Origin: Verrucomicrobiota bacterium
GTDB taxonomy: Bacteria; Verrucomicrobiota; Verrucomicrobiia; Opitutales; Opitutaceae
Length of the DNA stretch: 64,000 nt
Reading direction: 5' to 3'
Assembly: GCA_016235555.1 (NCBI GenBank)
Contig: JACRKC010000055.1
Location: 62,001 to 126,000 of the forward strand
The notes under the pieces were generated by a model, which did no database searches, was not told the DNA's origin, and was given only the letters and a program-made list of their open reading frames with translations. Every line of letters begins with the position of its first letter. Positions within the stretch are counted from its first letter, which is position 1. Positions 15,741 to 22,405 of the stretch are shown in pieces. Made by a program: the position numbers and the translations under genes.

Positions 15741-17057
15741 TCACGGACTCTTCTCCGCGAGCACCGTGCGCACATCGCCCCGCGCCCGGGCCAGCTCCAC
15801 CCGGCTCAGGTTGTATTGGTAAACGGCGTCGACCACGTTGTCGGCGGCGATCGCGAGCTGGTTCTGCGCCTCGACCACCTCACGGTTGTCGGCCACGCCT
15901 TCGTGATAGCGCGCCCGGGCCAGGTGGAGCTGCTCCTCGGCGAGACGGAGATTTTTTTCCGCGACGGCGATCTGGGCATTGCGCGACGAGGCATCCTGCC
16001 GCGCGAGGCGAAGCTCGGAGGAGATTTGCAGCTCGAGGGTCCGCAGCCGGGCCTCCTGCATACGCTGCCGGGAAAGCGCGGAGCGCTTGTCCGCACCCGC
16101 CCGCAGGCCGTCGAAGATCGGGATGCTGAGTGCGACGCCCGCCGTCCACACCGAGCGCTTGTCGTTGTCGTCAAAGTTTCCCGCCGCGCGCCCCCAATCG
16201 CCCGAGAGTGCCAATGACGGGAGGCGCTCGTAGCTCGCCGTGCGCACGTCGAGCCTGGATTGGTCCACCGCCTTCTGCGCCCGCAACCACTCCGCGCGCT
16301 GCTCGAACGAAGTGCGGGCATCGCCCAGCGCCATCAGCGAGGCGTCGACTCGGCGCACCGCGAAATCCGCCAGCTTGATCTCGAGGGCGGGATCGAGGTT
16401 GAGGAGCCGCTTGAACGCCAGTTCGCTTTGGTAAGCCGTCGTCACCTGCTGCAACCGCGCCTGTTCGGCCTGGGCGAGCTGGGCCTCGGCCCGCGTCACA
16501 TCGATCTGCGCGACCGTTCCGGCCGCGAACTGGTTGCGCGCCAGATCGAACAGCGCCTTCGCGCGCGTGATGCTGGCGTCCAGCACATCGAGCCGGCGGA
16601 GATTCCGCAAATGGGCGAAATAAGCCTGCGCGACCGCGGTGAGCGAGGCCTGCACCGTGGCGCGCAGCTCGGCTTGCGCGATGTCGACGCCCACGCGCGA
16701 AGCCTGCGCGGCGGAGATCACCTGCGGGTTGAGCAGCGAATAGGAGCCGGCGAAGCGCGCGTCGAAACGGTTCGACGGCCGCGTCTCGCTCAGCGCTCCG
16801 GTGGTGCTGAGAATATTCAGGTTGCGCGTCCGCCGCTGGGCGGCGTTGGCGTTGACGGTTGGCAGCAGCCCCACGCGCGCAACATTCGCCTGCTCGATGG
16901 CCTGCAGCGCCGCTTCGCGGCCGAGCAGCACGCTTGAGTTTACGCGCTCCGCCGTCGACAGCGCTTCCTCCAGCGTCAGCGCCATGGGCTGGGCGGCGAT
17001 GGAGCCAACGGCCGCGACGGCGAGGAACAAGGGGAGGAAATATCTCGGTGACCGCAT
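15741..17057 (-). CDS. TolC-family outer membrane efflux protein
   Basis: 438-residue outer-membrane channel of tripartite exporters. A signal peptide is visible ([20 protein letters not shown]). The mature part is the long alpha-helical, Gln/Ala/Arg-rich repeat pattern of TolC proteins ([20 protein letters not shown] near the start; [40 protein letters not shown] near the end). No inner-membrane pump or adaptor gene is next to it, so its partners must be elsewhere. It is divergent from nadE. Confidence 0.9.
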
Positions 17058-17158
17058 GGAAGATGCAGAGCAAATCGGGCGCCCGGCCCGGAGCGCAAGC
17101 CCGGCGTTGTGGGTTGTCAGACGGTGGAAAGCCCCTCACGTTGCGCCCCTTGTTTCCC

Positions 17159-18826
17159 ATGCGCCTCGGCCTCGCCCAGTTCAACCCGACCGTCGGTGAT
17201 CTCGCCGGCAACCGGCAGAGAATCCTCGCCGCCTACGCCGCGCTCGTCGCGCAAGGCGCGGAGCTGGTCGTGTTTCCCGAACTCGCCGTGTGCGGCTACC
17301 CGCCGCGCGACCTGCTCTTCAAGCGCCGCTTCGTGCCCGACGTCGCCGATTCACTCGCCGAAATCGCCGCCGCCGTCGGCCCCGTGCCCGCGATCATCGG
17401 CACCGTGGAGCCCAACACCTCCGGCCGCGGCCGCCCGTTTTTCAACAGCGCCGCGTTCTGCTATCGCGGCAAGGTCGCCGCCGTCGCGCGCAAATGCCTC
17501 CTCCCCACCTACGACGTATTCGACGAGGATCGCTATTTCGAGCCCGCCACCACGCCTACCGTCATCGAACACGCCGGCCGCCGCATCGGCATCACGATTT
17601 GCGAGGACATCTGGACTCACCCGATGATCAGCACGCGTCGCCTCTATTCCGGCGCCACGCCCATCGAGCAACTCGCCGCGCAGAAATGCGACCTCATGGT
17701 CAACCTCTCCGCGAGCCCGTGGCACAGCGCCAAGGAAAACGTCCGCCAGAAACTCGTCGTCGCCGAGTCCGCCCGCGCTCTCCGCTGCCCCGTCGCCTAC
17801 GTCAACGCCATCGGGGGCAACGACGAACTCATCTTCGACGGCCGCAGCCACGTCGTCGACTCGCAGGGCCACCTCCTCGCCGGCCTCGCCGCCTTCGAGG
17901 AAGAGTCCCGTGTCGTCGACCTGAGTGTTCCGGACTCTCAGCTCTCAACTCTCAGCTCTCAACTCTCGCCGAGTTTCCAACTCGGCGAGATGGCCGACAT
18001 CTACCACGCCCTCGTGCTCGGCACGCGCGATTACGCCCACAAGAGCGGCTTCAAACGCGCGCTCGTCGCGCTCTCCGGCGGCATCGACTCCGCCGTCGTC
18101 GGCGTGATCGCTGCCGCCGCCTTCGGCCCGGAAAACGTGATGGGCGTCTCGCTCCCCTCCTCCATCTCCTCGCAACACTCGCGCGACGACGCCCGCATCC
18201 TCGCGCAAAACCTCGGCATCCGCTTCGAGACCGTGCGCATCGCCGATGTCGTCAGCGAATCGGAGAAAGTGCTCTTCCACCTCTTCAAGGACACCAAGCG
18301 CGACGTGACCGAGGAAAACATCCAGGCCCGCGCCCGCGGCCTCCTGATGATGGCGCTCTCGAACAAATTCGGCTCGTTGCTCCTCACCACTGGCAACAAA
18401 AGCGAAATGGCCGTCGGCTACTGCACGCTCTACGGCGACATGTGCGGAGGCCTCGCCGTGATCAGCGACGTGTTCAAGATGCAGGTCTACGCCCTCGCCC
18501 GGTGGATCAACCGCGAGAAGGAAATCATCCCGCACAACACGATCGACAAACCGCCGAGCGCCGAGCTGCGCCCCAACCAAAAGGACCAGGACAGCCTCCC
18601 GCCCTACGACCAGCTCGACGCGATCCTGCAAGGTTACGTCGAGGAAGGCCTCTCCCGCCGCGACCTCGTCGCGAAAGGTTTCCCCGAACCCGTGGTCGCC
18701 GACGTCCTGCGCAAAGTGGATTTGAATGAATATAAGCGGAAACAAGCGGCCCCCGGTTTGAAGATCACGCCGCTCGCCTTCGGCGTCGGGCGGAGAATTC
18801 CGATCGTGCAGAAATACGTGAGCTGA
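17159..18826 (+). CDS. nadE: Glutamine-dependent NAD+ synthetase
   Basis: Makes NAD+ from deamido-NAD with glutamine as amine donor; 555 residues. The N-terminal nitrilase domain has the catalytic Glu ([15 protein letters not shown]), Lys ([14 protein letters not shown]) and Cys (GITICEDIW). The C-terminal synthetase has the PP-loop [12 protein letters not shown] and the late [14 protein letters not shown]. The ATG at 17159 is the family start. Between the domains the linker contains [20 protein letters not shown], encoded by a heptad repeat and a small palindrome (17935-17989). Confidence 0.96.
17935..17989. repeat. Heptad repeat plus palindrome inside nadE
   Basis: Five tandem 7-base words of the CTCTCAA/CTCTCAG type are followed by the palindrome CGCCGAGTTTCCAACTCGGCG. 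They are translated in frame in the interdomain linker of NadE. The same CTCAACT words occur at 21218-21246, 50691-50722 and (inverse) 42231-42262 and 51149-51180. Confidence 0.75.
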
Positions 18827-18832
18827 GTTTTG

Positions 18833-19282
18833 AACCACTGATGATCGCTTATGAACACTGATGCCCCGACACACATTGAGCACGATGCAGACGGCTACGC
18901 GCTGATTGGTGCTTGTTTTGAAGTCTACAATGAAATGGGTAACGGCTACCTCGAAGACGTTTATCAGGAAAGTTTGGAGATGGAGCTCACTGAACGTGGC
19001 ATCCCATTCATCACGCAGCCCAAGCTCCCGATTTACTACAAAGGCCGCCTTCTTCGAAAGAAATACGAGGCCGACCTCCTCGTCTTCGACAAAATTATCG
19101 TCGAGTTGAAGGCCGTGAAAGCCCTGCTGCCCGAACACGAAGCCCAGCTGTTGCACTACCTGAAGGCGACCGGTCGTCGCGTCGGCTATCTGGTAAACTT
19201 TGGCGCTTTCCCGAAGTTGGATTGGCGCCGACGCGTCATGTGACCTGTTTTCATCAGTGTCCTTCAGTGAAAATCAGTGGTT
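18833..19282. mobile_element. 450 bp terminal-inverted-repeat element carrying a GxxExxY gene
   Basis: The left end 18833-18863 begins AACCACTGAT and ends CACTGATG. The right end 19252-19282 read in reverse begins AACCACTGAT and ends GGACACTGATG. The two 31-base ends match at 25 positions. The only gene inside is the GxxExxY gene, whose ATG (18851) lies within the left end. The element sits between the nadE stop and hemL, whose ATG is 5 bases after the right end. There is no transposase, so it is either non-autonomous or moved by an unknown mechanism. Confidence 0.7.
18851..19243 (+). CDS. GxxExxY family protein
   Basis: 130 residues with the name-giving motif GNGYLEDVYQ at residues 35-44 and the conserved YEADLLVFDKIIVELKAVKAL. 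The Asp ... Glu-x-Lys spacing in the latter resembles the catalytic core of PD-(D/E)xK nucleases, so a nuclease fold is plausible but unproven. Proteins of this family are widespread and scattered among bacteria, and their function is not known. The gene occupies nearly all of an inverted-repeat element, and its start codon lies inside the left end. Confidence 0.88.
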   Translation: MNTDAPTHIEHDADGYALIGACFEVYNEMGNGYLEDVYQESLEMELTERGIPFITQPKLPIYYKGRLLRKKYEADLLVFDKIIVELKAVKALLPEHEAQLLHYLKATGRRVGYLVNFGAFPKLDWRRRVM

Positions 19283-19287
19283 AAAAA

Positions 19288-20558
<1,271 letters not shown>

Positions 20559-20562
<4 letters not shown>

Positions 20563-20638
20563 GAGCCTGCTTGCAGGCGATGGGATTTAGCCCACGCTGC
20601 GCCTCAAACCACTGAACCGCGTGCAAGCACGCTCCTAC
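20559..20638. repeat. Double-hairpin repeat bridging hemL stop and next gene's start
   Basis: The left arm GTAGGAGCCTGCTTGCAGGCG and the right arm (inverse) GTAGGAGCGTGCTTGCACGCG match at 19 of 21 positions. The first TAG is the hemL stop (20560-20562). The right arm contains the GTG (20621) that opens the next reading frame. The repeat thus makes up the entire gap and both codons. Confidence 0.85.
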
Positions 20639-22405
20639 CAGACCCTCCTCGCCTCCGCGTCCTTCGCGCTCTCCGCGTTGCAAATCGTCGCCCAGCCCGC
20701 CGACGCGCCCCTGCTGCCACTCAACGAGCTGAAGCCCGGTCAGCGAGGCGAGGTCTGGACCGTTTTCCGCGGCACGCAGCCCGAGCCGTTCGCCGTCGAG
20801 GTCACCGGCGTGGTCCGCAACGCCCTCGGTCCCGGCAAGTCGCTCATCCTCTGCCAGCTCACCGACCCGCGCGTGCAAAACATGGGCGCCGTCGCCGGCA
20901 TGAGCGGCAGCCCGCTCTACGTCGACGGCAAACTCGCCGGCGCCCTCAGCTACCAGATCCAGCGCTTCGAGACCGTGCGCTACGCCGGCTTCACGCCCGC
21001 CGCCGATCTCGCCGAGGTGCAGGCGAAAGCCGCCGCGCCGATTCGCCCGATCCCGGTCACGCAATCGGACGCCCGCCCGACTGACTCCGCTTACAAGGCG
21101 CTGCAACCTGTCTTCACCGTCAGCGGCCTCAGCCCTGCCGTCGCCGAGTTGTTCGCCCCGCAATTCGCCGCACTCGGCCTCGCCGCCACCGCCCTCGGCG
21201 GCAGCGACGCCGGCTCCCTCAACTCTCAACCCTCAACGCTCAACTCATCCCCCCTCCGCCCGGGCGGCGCTGTCTCCGTCGCGCTCGCCACCGGCGACAT
21301 CACGCTCGCCGGCACCGGCACCGTCTCGAAGCTCGATGGTCAGCGCGTCACCGCCTTCGGCCATCCGATGCTCTCGCTCGGCGAGGTCGAACTCCCGCTC
21401 TGCGCCGCTGAGATCGTCACCATCCTGCCGTCGCAGATGCAGTCCTTCAAGGTGGCCAACACCGGTCCCGTGATCGGCACGATCTCGCAGGACCGCCTTT
21501 CCGCCATTTCCGGCACGCTCGGCCCCGGCCCCGCAATGATCGACGTCGAGGTCAACGTTTCACCCGTGCGCAGCGGCAAACGCAGCCTCAAGTTCGCCGT
21601 CGCCCGCCAGCAGCAGCTCACCCCGGTGCTCGTCGCGGCGGGTGTCACCCAAGCCATCCTCGGCGCCAACGACAACGGCTTCGCCAGCGGCTTCCGCCTC
21701 CGCAGCGAGATCACGTTTCCCGCCGGCGCCACCAAGGCCTCGCGCACCGCCGGCAAGATCGCCACGCAATCGCTCTTTCCCGGTCCGCAGGGCTTTCAGC
21801 AGGGCCTCAACGAATTCGTGCAGGGCCTCGCCGCCAATCTCCAGAATCCCTACGAAAAAACCTTCCCCGACCGCGTCGTCTTCAACCTCGAACCGCTCGC
21901 GGAAAATCCGACCGTGGTCATCGACCAGTTCCAGTTGTCGCGCTCCACCGCGCGCGGCGGCGAGACGATTCAGATTCTCTTCGCCTGGCGCGACTGGCAG
22001 TCGGTCGAGCGTCGCGAGACCATCGACCTTCCCGTCGACCCCGCCTGGACCGGCAAACCGCTCGAAGTCATCCTCGCTCCCGGCCGCGCGCTCGACGAGC
22101 TCACCGGCCGGCCGCGCCTCATCTCCGCCGCCACCCTGCGGTCCTTCGACGCCTACCTCGCCGCGATCGGCGACGACCGACCGAACGACGGCCTCTGCAT
22201 CGCCGTCGTCGAACGCGCCGAGTTGTTCAGCGATCAGACCGTCGGCACGCCCGAGACACCCGGATCCATCGAGCGCATTGCACGCGCCGCCGACGAAGCC
22301 CGCTTTCAGAAACGCGACGCGCTGATGCCGCTCTGGGAACGCCACGTCCTCGCCGGCCGCCTCTCCAGTGTCCTCGTGCGTCGCGCGCTCCGCGTCGGCG
22401 AGTGA
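20621..22405 (+). CDS. Exported protein with SpoIVB peptidase S55-like domain
   Basis: 594 residues with a likely signal peptide (LLASASFALSALQIVAQPADA). The segment MGAVAGMSGSPLYVDGKLAGAL matches the Ser-containing motif of peptidase family S55, and GQRVTAFGHPMLSLGEVELP has a His in the expected neighbourhood. The conserved opening is LPLNELKPGQRGEVWTVF. A protease role is plausible but not certain. The start is doubtful: the GTG at 20621 lies in the right arm of the upstream repeat, so the first residues (MQARSYQ) are repeat-derived. A CTCAACT heptad array at 21218-21246 is translated as SLNSQPSTLNSS. Confidence 0.75.
   Translation: MQARSYQTLLASASFALSALQIVAQPADAPLLPLNELKPGQRGEVWTVFRGTQPEPFAVEVTGVVRNALGPGKSLILCQLTDPRVQNMGAVAGMSGSPLYVDGKLAGALSYQIQRFETVRYAGFTPAADLAEVQAKAAAPIRPIPVTQSDARPTDSAYKALQPVFTVSGLSPAVAELFAPQFAALGLAATALGGSDAGSLNSQPSTLNSSPLRPGGAVSVALATGDITLAGTGTVSKLDGQRVTAFGHPMLSLGEVELPLCAAEIVTILPSQMQSFKVANTGPVIGTISQDRLSAISGTLGPGPAMIDVEVNVSPVRSGKRSLKFAVARQQQLTPVLVAAGVTQAILGANDNGFASGFRLRSEITFPAGATKASRTAGKIATQSLFPGPQGFQQGLNEFVQGLAANLQNPYEKTFPDRVVFNLEPLAENPTVVIDQFQLSRSTARGGETIQILFAWRDWQSVERRETIDLPVDPAWTGKPLEVILAPGRALDELTGRPRLISAATLRSFDAYLAAIGDDRPNDGLCIAVVERAELFSDQTVGTPETPGSIERIARAADEARFQKRDALMPLWERHVLAGRLSSVLVRRALRVGE
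21218..21246. repeat. CTCAACT heptad array inside the S55-like gene
   Basis: Four successive heptads (CTCAACT, CTCAACC, CTCAACG, CTCAACT) in frame, giving a Ser/Asn/Gln/Pro-rich loop. It is the same word as in the repeats at 17935, 50691 and 51149. Confidence 0.75.

Follow-up and report, generated by a model that had tools for sequence, protein, structure and literature searches.

What is the 450-bp segment that separates nadE from hemL in the 64,000-nucleotide stretch of verrucomicrobial DNA analysed here (the window), and how does the one small gene inside it relate to the inverted ends of the segment? The gene belongs to GxxExxY, a large family of unknown function that is present in most genomes of some groups. 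The original prediction, made from the sequence of the window, was that the gene may encode, or require, a nuclease acting on these ends, and that mobility would explain the scattered distribution of the family.

The element between nadE and hemL and its protein

The single enclosed gene of the prediction was recovered as the sole open reading frame between the nadE stop codon and the hemL start codon (Table 1). Its product matches both TIGR04256 (6.5e-42, 142.6 bits; curated cut-off 35) and PF13366 PDDEXK_3 (2.5e-41, 141.1 bits; curated cut-off 22). The segment is bounded by the inverted pair AACCACTGAT...CATCAGTGGTT, in which 25 of 31 positions match when counted by eye. An unprompted inverted-repeat search of positions 18000-20000 returned the same pair as the longest (36 nt, 81%), and the observed score of 22 was reached in none of 3000 dinucleotide shuffles of both flanks (maximum of 15 in a further 500). 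The 31-base imperfect inverted ends are thus borne out, and a chance origin is excluded by these shuffles together with the control windows described below. Each end comprises three tandem units of ~10 bp, with a spacing of 10 bp on the left and right alike. As claimed, the start codon (ATG, 18851) falls within the left end, an arrangement found in only 25 of 110 relatives. The T and A runs that flank both ends on the outer side recur across loci. Elsewhere in the window, nadE holds in-frame tandem CTCTCAGCTCTCAACTC repeats (17935-17967), with a similar repeat at 21216-21241 in ORF 20621-22405; repeats of this type look like small repeat insertions tolerated by the coding sequence.

Table 1. 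Features of the nadE-hemL region (positions in the window).
Feature	Position	Strand	Details
nadE, left neighbour	16859-18826	+	ORF as listed; real start possibly later
T-rich run outside left end	18828-18832		
Left end, AACCACTGATGATCGCTTATGAACACTGATG	18833-18863	+	AACC + CACTGAT 18836-18842, CGCTTAT 18846-18852, CACTGAT 18856-18862; 10-bp period
GxxExxY gene, 130 aa	18851-19243	+	G32xxE35xxY38, D75, E85-x-K87, Q99xxxY103
Right end, imperfect inverse, CATCAGTGTCCTTCAGTGAAAATCAGTGGTT	19252-19282	-	minus-strand CACTGAT 19273-19279, CACTGAA 19263-19269, CACTGAT 19253-19259, then GGTT
A run outside right end	19283-19287		immediately before hemL start
hemL, right neighbour	19288-20562	+	

Among 55 sequences, D75, K87 and Y103 are invariant, while E85 and Q99 are conserved in at least 90%. 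Conservation extends to G32xxE35xxY38. An AlphaFold2 model of the window protein (pLDDT 89.9) has as its best PDB match SSO0001 (E 1.7e-5, Z 9.5), which we take to be a Cas4, followed by lambda-type, LHK-Exo and AdnAB/AddAB nuclease domains. The suspected PD-(D/E)xK core agrees with the motifs D...ExK and QxxxY and with the predicted fold, and by both the GxxExxY protein is a putative minimal nuclease of the Cas4/RecB type. It differs from Cas4 proper in having one cysteine in 130 aa instead of four iron-sulfur cysteines, and in having nadE and hemL, not cas genes, as neighbours. What one published pipeline annotated as a GxxExxY domain was called cas4 by another tool (PMC8934634).

Sequence comparison indicates strong purifying selection on the gene, with dN/dS at 0.03-0.14; the relocated pair described below falls in this range too, and dS is near saturation. 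PADLOC profiles gave no weighty match (the window protein reached E 0.03 at best; one relative matched Cas4 at 0.009), and membership of an anti-phage defence family was rejected on this result. A phage gene was likewise rejected, as the gene occurred in none of the phages searched and PHROGs returned weak nuclease matches only. Among 72,556 plasmids, eight carry a GxxExxY gene.

Matched ends and their relation to the protein

Matched inverted ends scored above the threshold at 128 of 149 GxxExxY loci, compared with 60 of 2476 control windows of the same DNA (2.4%), and at some loci below the threshold units are still visible by eye. All 20 further loci, fetched later as a test of a prediction on array flavour (see below), have matched ends as well. 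The refuting case, in which most GxxExxY genes would lack ends, is thereby dismissed. A scan of named genomes yielded 80 loci spread over more than 20 phyla, archaea such as Methanothrix among them. Within the window genome's own taxonomic family, 93 of 110 genomes contain the gene. The window genome itself, 8.0 Mb in size, contains six strong GxxExxY genes, all with inverted tandem ends and each with ends of a different kind: CACTGAT (in the window), CGCAAAG/CGCTGAG, CACGAA, CACAGAT, CGCGGAT and CACGAAT. A seventh, weak match in this genome (62 bits, 325-aa frame) has no such ends and was excluded from the set. Eight divergent plasmid-borne homologues present clear ends in three cases (Bacteroides finegoldii, Bernardetia and Sphingomonas, the last between fabD and fabG), a short end in a fourth and none in the rest. 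Taken with the counts above, this shows the ends to be a feature of the family's core and perhaps not of its fringe. Almost all core-family GxxExxY genes, then, have their own matched pair of ends.

The ends take several forms. At L008, L026/L132, L055, L109 and L115 a complete small hairpin element, not a single array, lies on each side of the gene. Ends of this form are seen at the CGCGGAT gene of the window genome. On a Fusobacteria plasmid (L381) a divergent GxxExxY gene lies between direct, not inverted, copies of CAGATTTAATCCGTGTACCTAT. The odd unit AACRGAATG of L355 (G076) is matched left and right and lies outside the usual CRCNNA pattern.

At most loci, units fit C-[A/G]-C-N-N-A-[G/T/A] and repeat every 8-10 bp. 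When left and right ends were called separately, a precaution since pre-aligned ends favour equality, the first two spacings of the two ends were equal in 88% of loci, compared with 14% between loci. Left and right units have an identity of 0.94, compared with 0.54 for spacers (39% between loci). Unit sequence and spacing follow protein identity, with a Mantel r of 0.60 in the family and 0.63 over all loci; in the cross-phylum set r is 0.20 (p 0.007). Where two loci share no flank homology, their spacing is equal in 8% of pairs at <50% protein identity and in 68% at >70%, and one example of such sharing joins a locus of the Acidobacteriales to a locus of the Betaproteobacteria. That units and spacing track the protein at unrelated sites is what would be expected if both ends are recognised by the encoded protein. 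A literature search, whose coverage excluded subscription journals, found no work linking GxxExxY to such ends, and within that literature the matched ends represent the first concrete candidate substrate for the family.

Occupied sites, empty sites and gene-less copies

In most genomes of the window's family nadE and hemL are adjacent. The junction is empty (2-40 bp) in ~27 relatives, among them G025 and G065, whose NadE is the most similar (90%); 12 genomes have a GxxExxY element there, and others have remnants (G073, G048 and G053). The empty sites anticipated in relatives were thus found, both at this junction and for gene-less elements (see below). The 12 nadE-linked proteins form one 13-member clade together with a copy located between mnmE and mnmG in G052. 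The sister (100/98) of this mnmE-mnmG copy is the one that G005 has at nadE-hemL, and homology between the two stops at the element ends. The unit of gene plus ends thus occupies a new location and is missing from orthologous sites in relatives, in one well-documented case of relocation. G005 has, besides its related intact copy at nadE-hemL, an mnmE-mnmG copy (L173) that is frameshifted and differs from its orthologue by small indels; it is a decaying GxxExxY copy. Another palindromic family is present inside mnmE of G052, as a ~160-bp inverted tandem CGAACATCGAACATC repeat (L135, ~1443-1604); at this position the related G005 has ~50 unrelated bp instead.

At nadE-hemL, the kind of end unit (hereafter flavour) follows the protein subclade: CACTGAT in G000, G004, G031 and G037, CGCTAAT in G009, G027 and G055, and CACTAAT in G005, G010, G049, G070 and G095. 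Two pairs of genomes of the same genus (G037/G070 and G055/G010) have different subclades at the junction, and in G037 an N-terminal remnant of a CGCTAAT element lies beside an intact CACTGAT element. Movement is rare: in many genera the lineage has kept to this one junction. There have been losses, and one lineage has taken the place of another at least once.

The mobility explanation is supported in part, by the matched ends, the empty sites and the mnmE-mnmG copy bounded exactly by its ends, but not by the target duplications that had been expected with it. None of fixed size was found: 120 loci gave no excess at 8-9 bp and a slight excess at 6, and no pair of empty and filled sites displayed a duplication. 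A simple transposon with target duplication was therefore rejected.

The nadE-hemL junction holds other material too. The start of hemL (61-90 bp) is duplicated upstream of cargo at L236 (G009), L234 (G092) and L260 (G027), the cargo being GxxExxY in G009 and G027 and, by eye, a RelBE-like toxin-antitoxin pair in G092. Gene-less palindromic families of the CACGGAT, CGCGAAG, CACGAAT, TTTAGGTG and CCTATRGGACTTAT types also occur at this junction (L272, L265, L271, L266, L281, L282, L209, L220 and L278).

Arrays of the CACTGAT/CACGGAT/CACAGAT kind number 56 in the window genome, compared with two for a reversed-pattern control, and are often gene-less inverted pairs of ~65-270 bp with unrelated interiors. 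CACNGAT arrays are present in 39 of the 93 gene-bearing genomes and in 2 of the 17 gene-free ones (Fisher p 0.027, genomes treated as independent), and at least four copies are present in 24 of 93 and 0 of 17, respectively (rank test p 0.0065, kinship ignored). The count for the CACTAAT flavour was run as a prediction, with the relatedness of genomes left in the statistics: six genomes with a known CACTAAT-ended gene have 11-90 arrays, whereas four CACTGAT-ended genomes and 17 gene-free genomes have 0-1 each. Four other genomes contain at least 10 CACTAAT arrays. A CACTAAT-ended gene was then found in one of them (G041); among the genes read, the other three (G076, G011 and G078) have no cognate gene. 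Likewise, CACAGAT/CACGGAT-ended genes were then found in G048, G022 and G020, and a cognate gene was absent among the genes examined in the CACTGAT-rich G029 and G049.

Gene-less copies with the same ends are thus numerous mainly where a GxxExxY gene exists. The objection that such ends might occur everywhere regardless of the gene is countered: ends without a gene are common, but how abundant they are tracks whether a genome has the gene and which flavour that gene has. A host-wide repeat independent of the gene is disfavoured, since flavour and spacing go with the protein even where sites are unrelated, and copy numbers go with the gene. Four gene-less elements are missing in near relatives, where the whole short intergenic stretch differs, indicating that insertion is not clean.

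Interpretation and relation to known systems

Matched ends, co-variation of ends and protein, relocation, empty junctions, gene-dependent gene-less copies, the predicted fold and the low dN/dS together make it probable that the 450 bp constitute a one-gene mobile or selfish element, whose Cas4/RecB-type nuclease recognises its own inverted ends by sequence and spacing. The nuclease would bind and cut or nick these ends, or a cruciform formed by them; host break repair may then copy or insert the element, leaving no fixed target duplication, and gene-less copies would be served in trans. Counted against this reading are the lack of a fixed target duplication, unclean insertion, unrelated spacers in gene-less copies, scarcity on plasmids and absence from phages, flavour-rich genomes without a cognate gene, divergent members without visible ends, and a relocation that is well documented in a single case.

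The strongest rival, which we nevertheless consider unlikely, assigns the nuclease a role in the service of the host: it would bind dispersed tandem-unit sites and thereby regulate, protect or mark the chromosome; its own ends would be co-evolving binding sites among these, and mobility would be incidental. Such a role would suit the long stay at nadE-hemL, the strong purifying selection on the gene, its rarity on plasmids and absence from phages, and the many intergenic gene-less sites, whose count goes with the gene. It accords poorly with patchy presence, with the many junctions that are empty and others that have remnants, with a relocated unit whose limits are its own ends, and with the many flavours within one genome.

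Homing, in which the nuclease would cut the empty allelic site and be copied by homologous repair, with the ends as recombination or protection sites, seems improbable. Different lineages at nadE-hemL within one genus, the remnant beside the intact element in G037 and the partial hemL duplications next to cargo in G009 and G027 could be read in this way, but the ends and the empty site are dissimilar, the sites of different clades are unrelated, and gene-less copies have the ends alone in common.

Still less credence is given to an RNA-level element, whose paired ends would form a stem around the gene, as in a 23S rRNA intervening sequence or processed transcript, with the stem under selection. 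Inverted ends with equal spacing would indeed give symmetric internal loops, and the size resembles that of the 428-nt Coxiella intervening sequence (PMC4990558). This reading was rejected on the missing excess of G.U over A.C among end mismatches on the gene strand (210 versus 247); moreover, the ends have no Rfam match, the element is not in rRNA, and it is the protein that spacing and sequence track, even between unrelated sites. Finally, a passenger gene trapped between repeats of an unrelated family that is moved by another transposase is hardly credible: the repeats are also present without the gene, but it is the GxxExxY protein that flavour and spacing track, copies are more numerous where the gene is present, and matched ends extend across more than 20 phyla.

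Extending the one-gene element reading, we tentatively suggest that GxxExxY genes could represent an undescribed class of one-gene elements in bacteria and archaea, in which nuclease and ends co-evolve as a readable protein-DNA code of unit sequence and spacing, with many non-interfering flavours per genome and gene-less swarms served in trans. The matched ends would account for a large part of the short inverted tandem repeats of the CACAGAG, CACGGAT and CGCAAAG types in these genomes, and dozens of natural protein/end pairs provide a data set on how a minimal nuclease reads DNA.

Several known systems share some of these features. With Cas4, RecB and lambda exonuclease the protein has in common the predicted fold and the motifs D, ExK and QxxxY; it differs in being a stand-alone protein of ~130 aa with its own matched DNA ends, without iron-sulfur cysteines and with no cas1/cas2 or helicase partner seen. 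Homing endonuclease genes are likewise small, stand-alone nuclease genes that are patchy at a fixed site, yet the GxxExxY element has its own inverted tandem ends, gene-less derivatives and many sites per genome. The 23S rRNA intervening sequences with an S23p ORF (PMC4990558) are similar in size (~430-450 bp), contain one small ORF in inverted ends and are regarded as selfish, whereas the GxxExxY element lies between nadE and hemL, encodes an unrelated protein and has no RNA-stem signature. MITEs and simple insertion sequences also combine terminal inverted repeats, gene-bearing and gene-less forms and polymorphic sites; unlike these, GxxExxY is the only ORF in its element, no known transposase (DDE included) and no fixed target duplication is present, and gene-less interiors are not shared.

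The likeness extends further for REP/RAYT systems (REPtron, TIRtron; PMC3733652), in which a conserved, mostly chromosomal gene lies between inverted repeats that are also dispersed as gene-less intergenic copies, with several flavours per genome, matching genes and rare movement. At GxxExxY loci, too, the repeats flanking the gene are also dispersed, with flavour matched to the gene. Y1 HUH transposases and GTAG-tagged hairpins, by contrast, are absent from these loci; the enzyme is a predicted PD-(D/E)xK nuclease instead of a Y1/HUH tyrosine transposase, the ends are ~30-bp arrays of 8-10 bp units with no GTAG tag, and the elements occur in archaea and more than 20 bacterial phyla. By analogy, the best reading is that the element would work like REP/RAYT, but with an unrelated enzyme.
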